The notes under the pieces: generated by a model
Databases searched by the model: none
What the model was told of the DNA's origin: nothing
What the model saw: only the letters and a program-made list of their open reading frames with translations
Assembly: GCA_029964075.1 (NCBI GenBank)
Contig: CM057149.1
Coordinates: 34,306,900 to 34,370,899 of the forward strand
Length of the DNA: 64,000 nt
Source: Patiria pectinifera
Taxonomy: Eukaryota > Echinodermata > Asteroidea > Valvatida > Asterinidae
Direction: 5' to 3'
Position numbers and translations under genes: made by a program
In this document: positions 6,621 through 41,008 of the stretch, piece after piece
How the letters are laid out: each line of letters begins with the position of its first letter
How positions within the stretch are numbered: position 1 is the first letter of the stretch

Positions 6621-6779
6621 GGTGACTGCTTTATGTTCCGACCGTCCCTATGTTCCGACAACCTGCACATAAGATTGTGTCATTCCCGGTTAGGGTTTAA
6701 TAGGGTTAGGGATAGGAATATGTGCAGTCGGAACATAGGGGTGCCGGAACATTTTGTGTCGGAACATAGGTGTGTAACC
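6621..6779 (+). repeat. Fold-back element, copy 2 (short form)
   Basis: It begins GGTGACTGCTTTATGTTCCG and ends GTCGGAACATAGGTGTGTAACC (split here as GTCGGAACATAGG and TGTGTAACC), so both ends match copy 1. Only two 16-bp-type units remain on the left arm and three on the right. The centre carries CCTGCACATAAGATTGTGTC and a degenerate TTAGGG stretch near 6692-6713. Confidence 0.82.
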
Positions 6780-13596: not shown

Positions 13597-13632
13597 TATA
13601 AAGGCAGTGCGTGCGCCGCTCAACCTTCAGTT
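13597..13632 (+). promoter_or_regulatory. TATA box and initiator of the peptide gene
   Basis: TATAAAGG starts at 13597 and TCAGTT lies at 13627-13632. The initiator A (13629) is 32 bases from the first T of the TATA box, the usual metazoan spacing. The leader from 13629 to 13869 contains no ATG, so the first start codon met by a scanning ribosome is the one used for the precursor. Confidence 0.72.
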
Positions 13633-13869: not shown

Positions 13870-14109
13870 ATGAACATGAAACTGGACAGTCTGTTGGTAG
13901 TCAGTGGCATGGTTTGGCTAGTTCTACTAGTAACCATCTTAACAGGTGTCAGTGCTAAACCCTTTGATGGCGGGGAAACGGAGCTGCAGCCCAGGAGGCC
14001 CTACCACAATCGGGACTGGTTCCGCCTCCGTTACTCCAGGACTGTGCCAGATTTTGTACTGGGCGCCCTGGATCAGCTACACCACCGCGAAAAGAGATTC
14101 CCCAGAGTG
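13870..14109 (+). CDS. Secreted ten-cysteine peptide precursor, exon 1 (signal peptide and pro-region)
   Basis: This is the first coding exon of a predicted 159-residue secreted precursor. Residues 1-29 form a signal peptide, with a hydrophobic core LLVVSGMVWLVLLVTILTG and a likely cut after VSA. Residues 30-76 are a pro-region with no cysteine. It ends in REKR at residues 73-76, a textbook furin-type site, so the mature peptide should start at F77. The exon closes on a complete codon (GTG, Val80) followed directly by the donor GTGAGT at 14110, giving phase 0. The start is chosen because it is the first ATG after the predicted initiator and opens straight into the signal peptide; a second ATG two codons on would work equally well. 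Without splicing, the frame runs on only 21 codons. The role is set by the cysteine domain in exon 2. The joining of these exons is inference. Confidence 0.8.
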
Positions 14110-15467
14110 GTGAGTACTTTTCCAAGCTTTGTAATGTTGCAATTTTTTGTTGCACCTCCTTATCTCTTGGTTTAGAGAACTGCTAGAATTACCGGCATCC
14201 ACGCACGATGGTGCGTTTCAGACTCTAGCCAATAGCCCACTCCTTGTGATTAGTCGAGTGGCTTTTATTTCCACCGTTACTGGGACGTTCCAGAGTTCGT
14301 TTCAATTATTTCACACAAGCTCTCAGCTAACTGCATGACCATGTCCAGAGCTTTACAAAACGCACGTGCGATGGCGCTAAAGCATCGAAGCGTCCCAGTA
14401 ATATAGCGAACAAAACCGTCAACGTAATTTCAAAACCTTATTGGTGTATGGTTTCTGTAGGGGACACAATAATTTTTTGAAAAGGATCAAATCTTGTATA
14501 TTAGATACGGGTATGATTAGAAAAATAAAAATCAATTGTTCAAGCCATTCCCAGCAGTTTTTAATGTTATTTAGATTTTACTGTAAAAAATAAATTCAAA
14601 GTCAAGAGTCACTTGGCGGACGTTGCAAGATAATGAGGAAAGTATTTGCGGCAACGAGGCGTGTTGGCAAATACGTTTGTTCGCTGGACCTACCTAGGGC
14701 TAACATGATTATTATCTCCTTGCTATGTAGTTTTTTTTGTATCCCAGCCAACATTCTATATTTCATTGTGTGGGTTTTTTTTTCTGTGTATGTACGTGGA
14801 AGTATTCGGGAGTATGCCCCGCGAGGCGTAGATTGGTCGAGTAGTAAATACAAACCTTGTCTCGCGTGACTGCTAATGAAACCTGGTTGAACACCTGACG
14901 CACCGGGTCTGTTCAATTCCCGGGGCCTGAAAGAGAAACAGTCTGTCGGCGTCTGTAATCTTCGCCTGCGTGCTCTCATCGTGTTCTTAAAATGCTCCCA
15001 GCACGAGTTCGGGAGAGTGTGAAAAAAAATTGCGACACATTTTGTTTCGCCGTTAATTATTGAAAATTTACCAGGGGAGTAGAAGACGCGCACAGTCCTT
15101 GCACGAAGGATGAGGCACAGTTTGCGTAAAAAAGCCAAATAGCCTTTTGTTCTTCAACATTCGCATTCGAATAAAAAAGTTGACTCATGATTTTATTTTT
15201 CATTTTTGAAAGCAAACAGCATTGATTTTGACTGATTTTAGCTTCTTAAAAAATAAGTAAAACTACTCAAATTTCATTTTAAAAGGCTGCATATATTTGG
15301 AAAAAAATCGAGGAAGAGGTGCTTGCGAATTTTTGGAGTTAAACACTATACCTTCGAATTCTAAGCAAATTCATTGGAACAAAAAAGAAATACTCCGTAA
15401 GGCCAAAAAAAAAAAGTCTCCGGTTTCTGGTATGGAGCTTGCCCAAAAAGTGGTGCGGCGACGCGGC

Positions 15468-15494
15468 TTTTTTTTTTTTTTTTTTTTTTTTTTT
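15468..15494 (+). repeat. Poly-T tract (27 T)
   Basis: This uninterrupted T run in the intron could be the tail of an old minus-strand retroelement insertion, but no element body is recognised beside it. Confidence 0.85.
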
Positions 15495-17525
15495 GCTTGT
15501 CGGCTGAATGACTGGACTGGTGCCACTTAAAAACTTTGTAAAAATGTACGGTCGGGTGTCCAGTGAGTCCACATGGAGGAATAAAGCTTATTCTCGATCA
15601 TACAATAAATACAAAATAACTGTGCTGCAGCAGAATTCCAGTCAAACCAGTGAGATTGGCCAGTGAGATTTGAGATTTGAATTGAAAAAAACTTTTTGAT
15701 TTTCCGCAGCTTTTGCTGGCCTAATAAGTTTTGTTTTTGCAGGAGTTATGCTTCACCTCAAAATGTTGAAATGTTTACATGCCCGAGTGTCGTCACAGAT
15801 CTTTGGCTGTGTTGACCTACTCAAAGCTGAGCGCACTAGCAGTGAAGCCTTTTTAGAATAAAGGTCAATTTACCGATGAAATTAGGTCACAGTTAAACAG
15901 GCGGTATTAAGATAGCATATATAGGCCTACTGCCAAACCACTAGAAATAGGTTTCGCAAGTCGACAAGTGGTTTGGCTGTACTTGAAGGGCAACATTTTC
16001 CACATTTTTGTCTGAGTGAAATTTTTGGTGATTTGAGGAATTTACCTTGCATATCCCTGATGGCCCTAGTAACGGTCGGTAAGATTCCGGCTGAAGCGAA
16101 AGTTACCGTGACAGAAAAAAAAATCCTTTATTGACGATTTCGTTTTTAGACAAAACGGGGCTTTTGGCTCACGGGCATTTTTTCATTTTATCAAGTCTTT
16201 CAAGTCGCTGAATATTCATGCTTTTCCATACATTTGCATAAAAAAATTGTGTCCAAAATTTGCACAACATTGGGTGTCCCAAATAGCATAGGCCCACAGG
16301 TTGTCCAAACCGAGACATACAAAACCTTCTTGCTTAAAGTAAAAACCTTGCTTGCGCGTTCAGATTTTTCTATTTGAAACATTTTTTTAGACAAAAAATC
16401 AAAAAGAGCTCAGTGTTAAAAGCTAGACGTTTTTCCCAATGAAAACGACATCTGGAACACGAGGCATGCGGTAAAACTGATATGTTAGAAGTGGTCCTTC
16501 TACCTCGATCAGGCAAAAGCAATCAAGGGTTTTAGTGGATCATCCGCCATTAACAAACCACTACGGTCACACATCACCACGATTGTATGTAACACACTGG
16601 ATGACAGAAACTGTCTCATTTACTCTCGTCCTCCAAGTCTGTCAGTGAAGATCGCTTAGCAGCGGCTCGACGCGATCGGATAATAATGCCGGGCGGCATG
16701 ATGGACGACCCCTCGCCTCGCCAATGTCATAATCCCGTCGTGCCGATGAGAAATCCGCTGTTAATTCGGAAGTCCGGGCCTGCGCGAGTGATTGGCACGT
16801 GTGAATGACGGCTTAATCAGGACCGAGAGAGTGGAGTCGAGACTTCGCCGTGTTTGTTACCCAACAGCTCGGCGGACGATGACGCTTCGCGACCCCCTCG
16901 GCGGCCTGGCGCGCACCGGACTCTCAACAGTCCCAAAGTCCGGCTCGATTCCAGGTTTAATTTGGGTCAAAAGTCCCCGGCATTCCCCGTACTTTCGTAC
17001 AGTTTACATTCACGCCAGTTGGCCAGCAGTGCATTCATTTAAAAACCTCTTGGATCATCTCCGCTCAATTTCCTCCCCCTTCTTCTATTTTAATTAGAAG
17101 TGAACATATTGGAAGAAGTTTTAATAAAGACACCTCAACCTTTCCAATCCTTAGCTAAGGAGGTCAAGTCAATTTAATAACTGACGTTTTCAAGGAGATA
17201 CTTTTTATGTTTCTTAATTTTTAGGACATGTCACCACAAACCCGTTTTTATAAGTTTCTTTCGGAGACTATATACTCGCTTCTCAATATTTTTCGCGCAC
17301 TGTTGAGTCAATATAGACACTTACTATTAAACGCTGAGTCCAAAGAAGCCTGCCCATCTGTAATGGATGGATGATAAATATTCTGTGTGCTTTTACTATT
17401 ACGGCGTTTGTCTGTTGATAACAGAGGGATGGTACGGGGATTAGTTGTCGTGACACGGGCGCACCTCCGACATCTACCTCCGCTATTTTCGTCTAAGCCG
17501 CGGCGTATATCTGTCCACTTAGCAA

Positions 17526-17584
17526 CCAATGTAAACACCTCCCAATGCCGTATAAATAGAAGAGGTTGGCCTTCACTTCAGTTT
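17526..17584 (+). promoter_or_regulatory. Second TATA/initiator pair inside the intron
   Basis: CCAAT lies at 17526, TATAAATAG at 17551 and TTCAGTTTT at 17577. The initiator A (17580) is 29 bases from the first T of the TATA box. The match to consensus is as good as at the main promoter. The downstream sequence shows no signal-peptide frame, so it may be an alternative start for the peptide gene, the promoter of a non-coding RNA, or chance. Confidence 0.42.
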
Positions 17585-20471
17585 TAGTTTGTGGCTCTTC
17601 CCCCATACGAGGAATTTCAGTTTACCTCTCACAAATTCAGGCAAGGAAAATAATTTCTAGCTTCATGCTCTTGTAGATCCGTGCAAAACAAACACAAATC
17701 GAAAAACACTTATTTTACCCTTATTAGTTTATTGGCAATAGCATAGCCGTAGTTAAAACTAGAAAGCACTCAGAGAGCGCAAACCTGCGCCAAGGCTGAA
17801 CAATTCCCCGCCGTATTGTCAGTACACCCAAAAGAAATGCTCGCATAAATGTTAAGGCATCCTTTTAAACAATCCTGGATCCAGACACAGATCCGGATCA
17901 CTTCGAAAATCTAATCGATTTGTACTTGTACAAAGGACCACCCCCCCCCAAAAAAAATCATGCAAATCCGTCCATAAATTGTTGAGTTATCTTGTTAACA
18001 GACAAACCAACAAACAAACAAACGCCGAAGAAAACATAACCCCCTTTAGCGGAGGTAATAGCAGTCTAAATTAAAAATGAAAAAACACAACGGTCGAATG
18101 TATAGTAACAAGTTACATTGTTAATATCGGAGAGTAAAACCCCACCCCTTGTTTCCCATGGTCGAATCTTCGAAAATTAAAACCATATACAGTTAAGACA
18201 ATGAGCGGACTAAACCAAACCAGGAAGAGGAAATCCTGTTTTGACTGCAACTGCTGTCATTGTCGTTTTACCCCGTTCCGTTCGCTTTGTGCGAACACAA
18301 ACGAAACACAGTACATATACCACTATCCAGACATCTCTATAGCCTCATTAATATTTCCGATCGCGAGCCGTCAGGCCAAGGCAGCGCGGCCGCGCATGCG
18401 GCCGCATAGTACATTCGAGCTCATGGGCCTTCTACCTTCGCATCCACATTGATTTTTAATGTATACATACACATCCTGTAAAACAACTCGGAAGGTAAAA
18501 CGTCCATCAGTAACACCTGATGTTTACTGGACGATTCCTCGCTGTAATATCGATCCGTCATTACGGAACATCACAATCGCGAGCTCGCATTAAAATCTTA
18601 TAGCTTGCTCTCTCACGACCGAAGAAAAAAGAAAGAAGCAAAAAAAGGAAAAGACCCTCTTTTGAAATTAACGATTTTATCCGGCTACACACACGCAGTT
18701 AATGGAGTGGATGGTCACCAATATTTTAGGAGTGACATGCGAACAAAATAGCAACATTCCAATCGGGTGAAGGACACGCTCAGCACGTACGTTGATGCCG
18801 AATATTGACAGCGCTGTTTTGTTGGTATGAGGAGAACGCCGCACATTGGAGCTCGTGTGGAATTTCAATAAACAAAACATACCTCCTTTTTAAGGAAAAG
18901 TGAAAACACTATGTTGAAAACATGAGATCAGGGAATGCACGATCCATTTCAAATCCTTCCTGGGGGGGGACTATGAGATTTTTTTTTCAACTAAGAACAC
19001 AGACCAAAAGTACCGTTTTTGTTTCAAGTATAGAATAAACCATTTTTAGAATTAAACTATTTTCTCCGGACGAGATACATGCACAGTGAGTAACTTGTCG
19101 AACCACCAAAATCGGTTCTGTCCCGTTGTCCCTTTCCTTTTAAATTTGGGTACTTTAAAACATTCTTAAATGTATTACTTAATGTATTCCAGATTTGCGA
19201 GACTTTTTTGTCCTTTCACTAACCGTCATCGAACTCTATTCCAGAGTGAATTTTATAAAATGACTTTCCCATCATCATTTGTCTAGTATTAACGCCGTGG
19301 CTAAAATGTAATGTGAATCTTGTTAATCTCCGTCCTCTTTACAAACAAGCCGAGTTATATCCGCAATTAGGTATCTAATCTGGATGCATTTTGCATCCTC
19401 CAAAAGTTACTGCACTTAACACGAGACCCATCTTTCTGGATTTTCTTTTCTGTAAGCGTGCCGTTATCCAACCATAACAGTTCGCCACACAGGCCGTAAA
19501 AAAGCCATTGAATTACTGCCAGACTTCCAGATACTCGCCTTCTCCCACAAGACGACAGTGTATTAAATTTGAATCAATTTGAAAATCTCTGCCCCGCAGC
19601 TCTGACGCGTGAGATTTTCTTTATTTTATTGTTTCACTATCCTTTGTCGCTTTCCTCTTTAGTCAACTCAATGTCAGCCCCACTATCTCGAGTGCAATCC
19701 TTGGCGTGTTCTAAGCACAGGTCACGCAGTGGTCCAAGGTGGTTTTTCCATTGTCCATCAACGCACTAGAAGTGAACAATCACCTTCACCTTTTGTGCCC
19801 AAACACAATACCTTTCGCTTTCCTTCAGATAAGTGAATTACTTCCCGGTTTTCTTATCACCTCTCATTAACTTATTAGGGCTTCAGTGCTTCTAGCCTGA
19901 ACTGCATGGCTAGCTGGATAGAACCGCCTTGACAGACCGCCTCGACTTTTACAAGACGAGTCTGGGCACGTGTTCACTGTGGACAATCATGGAGGCCCCA
20001 ATCAATGGAGAAACTATTGTGCACGCTATTGTACAAATCAACTGCCCGTGACGGATTATCTGAACAATAGCTAGCACAATGCTTTCGCCATTGAAGGGCG
20101 CCATCGTGTTACAAGTGACATCGTGCCCGTATTGGTCCATTGGTTAGACTGAATGTCATTATTTTAGTTTTCATATGATCAGATGTGAAATCTCTTGAAA
20201 GGAGATTGGTGTAATTTTATAAAATGTGAAATGTGGGGCAAAAAACATACAAAAGTTGCCTGTCGTTTGCCTGTTCGTATGGCGTCCCAGGTAATGATGG
20301 TTTATAGTAGTAGCTCTCAACTTGACTAGGGACTGAATGGCTTGTGATTGACTACAGCAATTAACTTGTCATGAATTGTGATGATAAACTGTGTATTCAG
20401 GTAACAAATGGTTATTGTTTTGTGTTTTAATTAACGTTCGTTTAATTTCGTTCGGTTTCTTGTTCTTGCAG

Positions 20472-20711
20472 CCGATGGGAACGCAGTGTACCTCCGACAG
20501 CCAATGTCCGCGTCCTGACCACTGTTGCGCCATGAAGCTCGGCAAGGCGGTCTGCATGCCCCGACTGACCAGGGGACGGACCTGCATGATCAACGGCCCT
20601 CAAGCCTACTCCACCAATATCCTCTTCACTCAGTGCCCTTGCAGCAGCTTACAGGGATTATCGTGCCAACGCATGGGCCAAGGTAACCGGGGCGTCTGCA
20701 GCTCAAGCTAA
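20472..20711 (+). CDS. Secreted ten-cysteine peptide precursor, exon 2 (colipase-fold domain)
   Basis: The exon encodes residues 81-159 and the stop. Ten cysteines lie at 86, 92, 98, 99, 108, 118, 135, 137, 145 and 156, giving C-x5-C-x5-CC-x8-C-x9-C-x16-C-x-C-x7-C-x10-C. That order matches the fold shared by prokineticins and the second cysteine domain of Dickkopf proteins (family patterns recalled from memory). Other shared marks are CCA at 98-100, C-x-P after the fifth cysteine, Gly three residues before the sixth, and the C-P-C pair. Members of these families are extracellular ligands: prokineticins act on G-protein-coupled receptors, Dickkopfs on LRP5/6 co-receptors. The mature form (77-159, 83 residues) is prokineticin-sized, and the N-terminal Dickkopf domain is absent. 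By hand count about 73% of codons end in G or C, against AT-rich surroundings, which supports real coding. Which receptor it uses cannot be read from sequence. Confidence 0.88.
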   Translation, partial: PMGTQCTSDSQCPRPDHCCAMKLGKAVCMPRLTRGRTCMINGPQAYSTNILFTQCPCSSLQGLSCQRMGQGNRGVCSSS

Positions 20712-20802: not shown

Positions 20803-20808
20803 AATAAA
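20803..20808 (+). terminator. Proximal poly(A) signal
   Basis: AATAAA lies 92 bases after the stop codon. No clear GT-rich downstream element follows. Confidence 0.4.
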
Positions 20809-21634: not shown

Positions 21635-21640
21635 AATAAA
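21635..21640 (+). terminator. Distal poly(A) signal
   Basis: AATAAA is followed about 20 bases later by TATTCTTTTGTCATTCTG, a plausible downstream element. Confidence 0.4.
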
Positions 21641-34955: not shown

Positions 34956-35141
34956 GTTACACCTCTATGTTCCGACACCCCTATGTTCCGACACCCCTAT
35001 GTTCCGACACCCCTATGTTCCGACACCCCTATGTTCCGACTGCACATATTCCTAACCCTAACCCTAACCCTAACCGGGAGTACACAAACTTATGTGCGGG
35101 TTGTCGGAACATAGGGGTGTCGGAACATAGAGCAGTCCCCC
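34956..35141 (-). repeat. Fold-back element, copy 3
   Basis: It lies in the opposite orientation to copies 1 and 2. The left side has five 16-bp units, the right side two inverted units ending ATAGAGCAGTCCCC. The core matches the other copies (GCACATAAGTTTGTGTACTC on the minus strand, and AATATGTGCAGTCGG) and contains four telomere-type hexamers. Confidence 0.85.
35051..35075 (+). repeat. Interstitial (CCCTAA)4 telomere-type tract
   Basis: CCTAACCCTAACCCTAACCC continues to 35075, giving four units of the animal telomere hexamer. It sits at the centre of the fold-back element. Copy 2 has a decayed TTAGGG stretch at the same internal position. Confidence 0.9.
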
Positions 35142-36796: not shown

Positions 36797-39483
36797 ATTC
36801 AGTGGAGTGCGCAAACGTCATCGGGTGTCAGAAGGTACATGCACTCAAAAATCGCCACATCGGCAGAAGTATGAATTAGTTTGAGACCTGTTTGCAAGGG
36901 GTGTGTGTGTGTTAACAAGAAAAACATTTTCCCCAACCTAACGTAGCATTGAACACTGCGCATGCGTTAAGTAAACAAGAAAAAATATAAGTTGATAATA
37001 AGCAGGACAAGTTCTTTTCAGAACTAAATATCTTCTAAGCAGTAGTTATTACCACATTGTGTTACCGCAAACCGAACCGATAAGAAAAAATATCATTCGC
37101 AATGCTGATCACTTGACGTACTTGGCTCAATGACTTCCAACTGGCTCTTCACGAAGTGCAACCCGAAACCAGACCTTCCATTGATATCTTCGATTTATCC
37201 TCTTAAAAGTCGACGGCTGCCCACCAAACTCACCCGCGATGATCGGGTTTATTCGACGTCGAGGACAAATCTCGACAAAGAACCCATTCGTCAGCGGGTG
37301 TTTAGATAGACGTCACGACATGATCCATTTGAAATTCTGATAGTGGCCACAAGTCTGTGTCTGTCGGATCTGGAGATGCCACCGTATCGACCTAGCCCTC
37401 GTGTGATCTGCCACGTGGATGGAGAGATTAATTGTTTCGTCTAACTAACCTGTTAGTGACAGGTCTGAAGTGCGTGAACCAGAAAGGAGCCGAATGAACA
37501 CACCATTGAGCCAAAACTGAAGTCCCCTCATTCCCCTCATGACTATTGAAAAGTGAGCTGAACGTTCTAGGTAGTGTTATTGTTTTTACAAATGCGGGTT
37601 TTTCTAGAGTTGAGATGTCGATCGTTGTCAGAGTCTATAAACAATCTTCATCTTGTTCATGCACAGTCTAGTGGCAATGACCTACAGTGCATGGGTTCTG
37701 GAATTGAGTTTAGAGATGGAGGAGGGAAAATACGCTTCTTCGTTGTCTCGTGAGTGAAAAGGCCAAGAGGGTGTTATTTCGAGCCGAAAACGTGATGACT
37801 ACAATTGAACTGACATCAATATAGCTCTTAAATGTCTTCCTTATAGATTTGCTCTGGTATACGCGACGTGCCTTGGGCGATGTTCAACCTCAGAGCTTAC
37901 GCAGAATTTCTTAACTGCATTTGTCTTCTTCAGTTTTGTACAAAACGTTTTTGTCTGATTTTTCATTAAACGTGGACATTGATGAGGAAACAGTTTCGTT
38001 AAGTCTGTTCGGGAAAATCCAACCGTATGTATGGATTTTTTTTGCTGAATCTTTGACTCCTACATGTCTGCAGTTCGTTGTTGTTCTCCATTGAAACGAT
38101 GCTATTGGTTTCATTGGCTATATGCCCTGTTAATCGTTCGCCACCATTGTAAAAACGTATCATCATACTGACACATGACTTCTCTTTGCCCTATTTTTGG
38201 TAACATACTTCGAAGAAAAGCCCGTGGGTCGGTAAGCAAAATGTTCAGGACTCATTGCGCCACAGATTAGGTGCAAATGAACACGAACAGAACAAAATAC
38301 CGTGATAATTGATTTGACGTCTGGATTCAAGTTGCGTTTACGATGTGATTGCGTGCGAGACAAATCTGGTGCCTGCGCATTAACGTCTGCGAAATAGATT
38401 GCGGGTGAACCAACACAAGTTCAAGATGAATTGAAACATCATATTTATCATCACAAAAATAAGGGGGAAATGTCTTTGGTCGTGCATGAGCGACCATTCC
38501 GACCAACCAGAAATTTTGGACGGCTGGGTGCAAGACTACACCCGCGTGGAGAGGCCGAATTTGTCTCATCCATCTTCTGGGGTAAGATTCTGCCATATTG
38601 GTTTCGTGGATTTTTCAAAGACCCTTTTTAGGATTTGCAATATGAGCTCAGTTTGCGACAGTATAAAGGCCTCTCTCAACTTCGACAATCGATAGTAAAC
38701 GATGCCAAACCAGGTATAAAGCAATTGAGCAATCAGAAAGTCCGATCAATCTACATCGCCATGTTACATTCTCGCCTAATCTCCCTTCGTCATGTCTGTT
38801 TACTTACGCTCATAGACCCCTCGTATCTTCCTTTTAAAAAACTCTTTTCATAAAAGTTCACAGCCCCGGAGAAGCTGGCAGATGCGCCCCAGGGCTTTTG
38901 GGCGGGTCGGGATCGACCGCGCGCTAAACCCCTCACCGAGCTTTAGGAAGGGTGTCGCGTTCTATCCTCCTCTCAGTTCTTTCCTATCTCTCCCCTCTTT
39001 TGGGAGAATCGCTTGAGCGTAGTGACATTTTCGTGTGAAGTGGGAACTCATCACTGCATTTATTCATTGCTTGCTGTCCCCAGAACGACACGATGAGACT
39101 TCCGATATCTGACGTCATGCGAGGTTGTGGAACGAGGTTGTGAGTGTATGAGGAGCAGCCTTATGACTGCTGAGTGGCATATTGGGGCTTCGAGATGTTC
39201 GAGACTTGAGAGCTAGAGGAGATCCATATGCAATGGACTCTGTTCACAAGTACCCCCTCAACGGGCACATTGACAAAGAATACCAGATAATGCTGTCCCG
39301 TCTCTCTTACTCGAAGACCCCTTTTTAGGTTTGTTGTGTATATCGCTATGACTCATTCGTGCCTTTACACAATTTTCATGTGTCTGTTTCCATCCAATTA
39401 TTAGTGAGGGAACTAATACTCTACTACTGACGACCCTATTTGTCTCCTTCTTTTGTTGCTATTGGTTGGAAAAACTTTTTTTC
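36797..39483. other. Spacer, no gene recognised
   Basis: A short GT microsatellite lies near 36899. Frames at 37911-38853 are short and overlapping, and no exon is supported. Confidence 0.5.
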
Positions 39484-39905
39484 TCGACATGACCCATAAG
39501 ATTTGTACTCGAAAACCTTCTGCGGACATGGGCTCAGGTTTTCTATTGTTTAGATTTTTTTCTCCACTTGTTCCATAAGGTTTGTATACCAAAACCTTCT
39601 GAGGACTTGTGCTTGAACATCGTTTGGATTATTTTTTCTCGACATGTCCCTTAAGGTTTTTACACGAAAACCTTCCGAGGAGTTGTGCTCAGGTTACTGT
39701 TTGGAATTGTTCCCGACATGTTTCATAAGGTTTGTACTCGAAAACCTTCTGAGGACTTGGGCTCAGTTCATCGTTTGGAATTTTTCTCGACATGTCCCAT
39801 AAGGTTTGTACACGAAAACCTTCTGAGGACTTGTGCTCATGTCATTTTTCTAGACATGACCCATAAGGTTTTACGCGAAAACCTTCTGAGGGCTTGGGCT
39901 CAGGT
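39484..39905 (+). repeat. Minisatellite of about 74 bp, six units
   Basis: Six units carry CGACATGTCCCATAAGGTTT, a six-base spacer and GAAAACCTTCTGAGGACTTG, then GGCTCAGGT and a T-rich spacer. Unit length varies from about 64 to 77 bases. Each unit contains the inverted pair AAGGTTT/AAAACCTT, so the array can form a row of small hairpins. An open frame of 97 codons runs through part of it and is probably fortuitous. Confidence 0.85.
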
Positions 39906-41008
39906 CTTTGTTTTCCACATTCCCTTTATTGTCTTCTCAGGTAAGCTATTGTTCCAAGTCCTCAGATGTAAAGGATAAGAAGATACAGCGCCACGGGCCT
40001 CAGGCGGTATGCGCTAAACCCTAAGCCTTTGACGTCACCTCTTAGGGTAGCTTTAAAGGCATAATTTATGCAAAACTCCACTTTGTCGACGCTTTGGCAG
40101 GAGGACGTCCTCAGACGTACAGTTTGGACGTTCATCCGAACGTCACTTAAATAATGTGAAATCTGCTTCGGAAGTCAGGGGCTTCAGGTTGCTGAGACGT
40201 CTACACAATTTAGTCAGGTACATGACATGTAAAGCAGAATGGCACACTCACTGTATAAATGCACGTTTTATTTTGTTTCATTATATTACTAACAGTATTC
40301 CATTTCAACTCGCGCTGCCACGCTCCTAATGCCGACTTTAGTCGCGCCTTAAAGGTACGCGATGAGGATTTTGCTCCCTCGTCAGTTCTATAATAATTGT
40401 TCCTTTCTCGTTGTGTGCCATTATGCCACTTTATATTTCGACTCTACGCGATGGCTTAGCCCCGATACCCATGCTTGTTGCTTGGCTGCTAATTTGACAG
40501 TCAGTTTGTTTACTGAGATGGTGATTTATTTCCCGTTTTGTAAAAGCAATTGTTTAAAGACACCTTACCCGATCGTGTAGCCCCTCTTTTTCCCTTTTAT
40601 TTGAATCACTCCGAGAAAGGTGTTAACCACCACGAATGGCTGGCCAATTTCAACCGTCATCGTGCTGCCGGTGTTGTGATACGAGAGGCTCGCTCTATAA
40701 CACATGGTGCGTTGTTTGCCCAGTAATCGGCCCGGTGTTTTCTCCTCTCCAGGAGCTAGCTCAAGTGGAGTTGACTCTTTATAGGCCTACCTCGTTTGAG
40801 CGAGGGAAGGTTTTGTTTGCAATGAAACAGGAAACTTGGCACTGCCTAAGAATCGCTGCAATGCGATCTGTCACTTGCGAGAATGGTCGGTGCGTTAATT
40901 CGAACATTTTTTTCCTCTCTCTATCCGCTCTCTTAAACTGGATGTTAAACCAATGCATTACTGAGACGTTCATAAATTACGAGCATTGGTGGGGAACGAT
41001 TCCCAAGC
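39906..41008. other. Spacer, nothing recognised
   Basis: The 137-codon frame at 40636-41049 runs into the terminal repeat of the next element and has no domain. No gene is supported. Confidence 0.5.

Follow-up and report, generated by a model that had tools for sequence, protein, structure and literature searches.

A two-exon starfish gene for the probable precursor of a prokineticin-like ligand of the ambulacrarian type

In vertebrates, prokineticins have roles in gut motility, circadian output, blood cell formation and neurogenesis, and the AVIT end of the chordate proteins becomes exposed through removal of the signal peptide. Alterations of AVITGA cost chordate prokineticins their activity (PMC3624607). 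The prokineticin receptor is described as ancestral to bilaterians and lost in protostomes (PMC8557429; PMC6188537), and in ambulacrarian and Xenoturbella prokineticins a K/R-RFP-K/R signature has been published at the position of the chordate AVIT (PMC11521371). The window analysed here is the whole stretch of 64,000 nucleotides of the starfish Patiria pectinifera at C21:34306900-34370899 (genome of 613.5 Mb in 1020 contigs), and its forward strand harbors a two-exon gene which, with a probability of roughly four in five, encodes the precursor of a starfish prokineticin-like ligand of the ambulacrarian type.

Coding exon 1 (13870..14109) runs over 80 codons, from ATG at 13870 to GTG at 14109, and contains no cysteine. 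It is followed by a predicted phase-0 intron (14110..20471; GTGAGT...TTGCAG) and by coding exon 2 (20472..20711; 79 codons and TAA), which reads PMGTQC...GVCSSS and carries all ten cysteines of the precursor in a single domain, predicted to adopt the colipase fold. The donor of exon 1, GTG/GTGAGT, is equalled or surpassed by 8 of the 3777 GT sites of the window, and the acceptor of exon 2, ttcttgttcttgcag followed by CCG, by 53 of the 3204 AG sites, each count including the site itself; the scoring used simple, approximate consensus weights entered by hand. When the 20.5 kb of the window lying 5' of exon 2 were scanned for an open reading frame (ORF) with both a hydrophobic start and a phase-0 donor, exon 1 alone was returned, with three nested ATGs. 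By motif match, a TATAAA (TATA box) lies about 270 bases 5' of the start codon (13597..13602), and a possible poly(A) signal, AATAAA, at 20803..20808, with a second AATAAA at 21635. When searched against its own genome, exon 2 finds only itself at E ≤ 0.001, and exon 1 finds itself and one weak place with a stop (E 0.58). A chance origin of the ten-cysteine ORF is rejected, since its spacing pattern, composed after the sequence had been seen, has a single match in a six-frame translation of the window and none in 69.76 Mb of Markov sequence built from the window dinucleotides.

The joined precursor has 159 residues. The first 29 (13870..13956), which read MNMKLDSLLVVSGMVWLVLLVTILTGVSA, form a hydrophobic signal peptide with a probable cut after VSA, placed by eye. 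The exon 1 translation continues with a cysteine-free pro-region of 47 residues (13957..14097) that ends in REKR (14086-14097), and R-x-K-R is the furin consensus. The last residues of exon 1, FPRV (14098..14109), would be the mature N-terminus, and together with the preceding KR they spell K-R-F-P-R. The initial annotation had proposed this arrangement of two exons, signal peptide, cysteine-free pro-region, REKR, phase-0 intron and ten-cysteine domain, with a mature product of about 83 residues. Translations, splice-site scores and the first-exon scan confirm such a secreted-protein gene, with its exons predicted to join in phase 0, and 83 residues are indeed left after REKR.

The predicted structure places the domain in a group without choosing within it. 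The AlphaFold model of exon 2, built from an alignment of four sequences, has a predicted local distance difference test score (pLDDT) of 81.5 and a predicted template-modelling score (pTM) of 0.65, and its fold is of the colipase, Dickkopf C-domain and prokineticin type. Foldseek lists mamba intestinal toxin 1 first among its best matches, together with the DKK1 and DKK2 C-domains and colipase, and VIA-align adds Bv8. Because Foldseek puts the mamba toxin first and VIA-align puts DKK1 first, the fold cannot decide between prokineticin and Dickkopf. Three facts do so instead: the signature, a sister gene of like plan, and alignment scores with the cysteines held fixed.

The signature is found where it is expected, as EKRFPRV/PMGTQC places K-R-F-P-R just ahead of the N-terminus of the domain. 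The gene thus resembles, by description, the ambulacrarian and Xenoturbella prokineticin-like ligands (PMC11521371) in its ten-cysteine domain, in the K/R-RFP-K/R directly before it and in its ambulacrarian host, and it differs in that the signature overlaps the REKR site. With chordate PROK1 and PROK2 the protein shares secretion and the order of the ten cysteines (C, C, CC, C, C, CxC, C, C), with 27 identities over 73 aligned residues for PROK1 and 25 over 76 for PROK2. It also shares with PROK2 an intron shortly 5' of the first cysteine (G32 in exon 1 and C34 in exon 2 of PROK2; PMC3624607). Unlike both chordate proteins, its precursor has the 47-residue pro-region and the furin-type site, and unlike PROK2, which has four coding exons (PMC3624607), it holds the whole domain in one exon. 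When cysteines were fixed and the other residues shuffled (1000 shuffles each, the protein being taken from FPRV on), the domain gave z scores of 5.2 with the sister, 4.8 with a relative on contig C11, 3.8 with human PROK2, 3.1 with human PROK1 and 2.7 with the starfish Dickkopf.

Several observations weigh against the prokineticin assignment. AVITGA is absent from the N-terminus, which reads FPRVPMGTQC, and the Pfam Prokineticin model (PF06607; cut-off 21.6 bits) does not match the protein, in a test that recovers human PROK1 (148.6 bits) and PROK2 (140.6 bits) as controls along with the joined sister. DKK1 heads the VIA-align list by Z, and the join between the exons is a prediction from sequence. 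The search with hidden Markov models (HMMs) of the prokineticin, Dickkopf and colipase families, which the initial annotation had proposed, was run without a match to any of them; the sole Pfam call is a partial match to WAP. The missing colipase match also sets the protein apart from colipase.

The sister gene was found by searching the genome with PF06607, which revealed a second ligand gene at 8.87 Mb on the same contig as the window (45.3 bits). It would extend over C21:8852623-8873.8 kb, with a candidate first exon and one ten-cysteine exon, and would carry RNRR/FNR where the window gene has REKR/FPR. The candidate first exon (C21:8852623-8852820), a prediction and one of four candidates from a scan of 79.6 kb upstream, translates into a signal peptide and a pro-region followed by RNRR/FNRLH, and ends in a phase-0 donor, gtaagt; the ten-cysteine exon, near 8873.6 kb, begins in phase 0. 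A search with the pattern [KR][KR]FP near the sister and C11 genes gave three places, none of them fitting, and the RRFN of the sister came from the exon scan. The joined sister passes the Pfam Prokineticin model with 39.4 bits, and aligns with the window protein with 27 identities (19 of them non-cysteine) over 78 residues, heads included. Therefore, as far as the predicted first exon can be trusted, both genes appear to share one plan: signal peptide, basic site, phase-0 intron and a single ten-cysteine exon.

Four of the seven genome places found with PF06607 (on C17, C22, C4 and C16) were dropped as weak; three have internal stops, and the C16 match spans 32 of 97 positions. The retained match on C8, a Dickkopf gene, also includes a single stop, which lies 5' of its exon. 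In the relative on C11 (13344.5 kb, minus strand), one exon carries nine of the ten cysteines and is preceded by a phase-1 intron. Scans for its first exon gave no row under strict settings and seven under looser ones (two inside the ten-cysteine exon), none convincing, and two scans for its last exon gave two and three weak candidates without finding it. Its z scores are 4.8 with the window domain, 4.5 with human PROK2 and only 1.2 with the sister. As it stands near the first two and not near the sister, any branching order inside the family is tentative.

Among the alternatives, the one that survives best, though it is unlikely, is that the gene encodes a Wnt antagonist made of a Dickkopf C-domain only, that is, a secreted single colipase domain binding LRP5/6. 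The Dickkopf C-terminal domain shares the fold and the cysteine order of the window protein, and the PDB sequence search returned only Dickkopf C-domains, all weak (four sequences, best E 0.0037). However, the protein has no match to the C-terminal Pfam models of DKK1/2/4, which a separate starfish Dickkopf C-domain exon on C8 matches at 51.8 and 30.6 bits, and exon 2 alone reaches 9.2 bits against Dickkopf_N, below the cut-off of 25. The N-terminal cysteine-rich domain of Dickkopf is absent, exon 1 being free of cysteine. The z score with the starfish Dickkopf is the lowest of the five, and 14 of 1000 shuffles aligned equally well. Six DKK1 residues are reported to contact LRP6 (H204, F205, W206, S228, E232 and R236; PMC5325476). 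Read by eye from alignments, the window protein retains none of the six (K, L, G, Y, I and Q instead), whereas the starfish Dickkopf retains four (H204, F205, W206 and R236). A Dickkopf identity is therefore rejected on the missing Pfam match, the lowest z score and the missing LRP6 contacts. Of the two readings offered by the initial annotation, hormone or Wnt modulator, the signature, the sister and the z scores support a peptide-hormone precursor, and a prokineticin-like ligand is a better account than a Wnt modulator of the Dickkopf kind.

It could also be argued that the signal-peptide exon and the ten-cysteine exon belong to separate transcripts, as 6362 bases lie between them and their join is a prediction from sequence. 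This is a quite improbable explanation: the phases are compatible and the splice signals good, joining the exons completes the published K/R-RFP-K/R signature, and the sister on C21 is apparently built to the same plan. Least probable is a protein of the WAP type, whether protease inhibitor or antimicrobial. The Pfam WAP model scores 22.8 bits, slightly over its cut-off of 20.8. A complete WAP domain has eight cysteines, and this match is partial (profile positions 12-40 of 41, residues 81-110 of 159), with five of the ten cysteines outside it. The predicted fold matches the colipase, Dickkopf and prokineticin group, and the WAP label is probably wrong.

Human PROKR2 used as query gave 115 scored matches in the genome. 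Two genes encoding G protein-coupled receptors (GPCRs) on contig C10 (C10:12017656-12022222 and C10:9246768-9307427) were scored further; the best match, joined to its first exon, makes up one, and the third and seventh matches the other. Both have an intron at DR/Y. Against human PROKR2, which also has two coding exons (PMC3624607), the joined sequences reach 250.1 and 242.9 bits. For the first, the best solved chain among the matches listed is the prolactin-releasing peptide receptor (163.9 bits), with no solved prokineticin receptor among the 60 matches listed. By their sequences, the C10 genes are two good candidates for prokineticin-type receptors, with which the ligands may pair. Two further genes, on C7, carry the same DR/Y split.

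For the way in which the protein could act, as for splicing in vivo and the first exon of the sister, we infer: cleavage, receptor pairing, agonism and function are proposed. The precursor would enter the secretory pathway, where signal peptidase would leave a pro-hormone. A furin-like convertase would then cut after REKR, releasing the 83-residue protein, which should carry five disulfides given its ten cysteines and predicted colipase fold. FPRV, now at the N-terminus, would lie shortly before the first cysteine, at the position that AVITGA takes in the chordate proteins. This FPR head would insert into a prokineticin-type GPCR, the disulfide domain holding the outer face of the receptor. 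In vertebrate prokineticins the active end is exposed by removal of the signal peptide, whereas in the starfish protein this is seemingly done by a processing enzyme.

In both starfish ligands, as predicted, the signature and the basic site overlap in such a way that a cut would leave F-x-R as the N-terminus, and the published signature can therefore be read as a cleavage site joined to an agonist head. We propose tentatively, at somewhat less than even odds, that the activation head of ambulacrarian prokineticins is made by proprotein cleavage, K/R-RFP-K/R combining a convertase site with an F-P/N-R N-terminus that serves as agonist key in place of AVIT, and that two starfish ligands (FPR and FNR) correspond to at least two receptors of the prokineticin type. 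Neither furin nor convertase is mentioned in the main text of PMC11521371. Its methods employed a cleavage-site predictor, so its authors may have noticed this reading.

Scans of the window for tRNA and Rfam families gave no match, and neither did Pfam on the ten longest of its 79 ORFs (at least 88 residues), a set that includes the ORFs of both exons and omits those starting before base 600. A minisatellite with a 16-base unit (CTATGTTCCGACACCC or close, and its complement) lies at 56-421, 6729-6774, 34959-35040 and 35098-35130, and a tandem repeat with a 74-base unit (5.9 copies) at 39478-39913. Elsewhere in the genome, a codon pattern for GFNSALMFG has one match (C16:976249; none for the control), among six further (S/N/T)(A/G)LPFGKR or SALTYGKR peptides; this array is the L-type SALMFamide precursor of starfish, and by it the genome is judged to come from one. 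A search with COX1 gave no match at E ≤ 0.001.

The initial annotation suggested an undescribed ligand. Its kind has already been published for ambulacrarians (PMC11521371), and what stands of the suggestion is that no paper on this gene in a starfish was found in open-licence PubMed Central, searched mostly at the level of listings and preprints aside; the gene may already have a database entry in the species annotation. It is thus best regarded as a new starfish member of a published prokineticin-like kind. A modest novelty is that the signature can be read as a furin-type site followed by FPR, the mature N-terminus. Such genes can slip past HMM annotation, as Pfam labels this protein a partial WAP. 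Since the receptor is described as ancestral to bilaterians and lost in protostomes, ambulacrarians are key to understanding the role of the ligand without AVIT, and this starfish, where two ligand genes occur alongside at least two receptor-like genes, offers a testable system.
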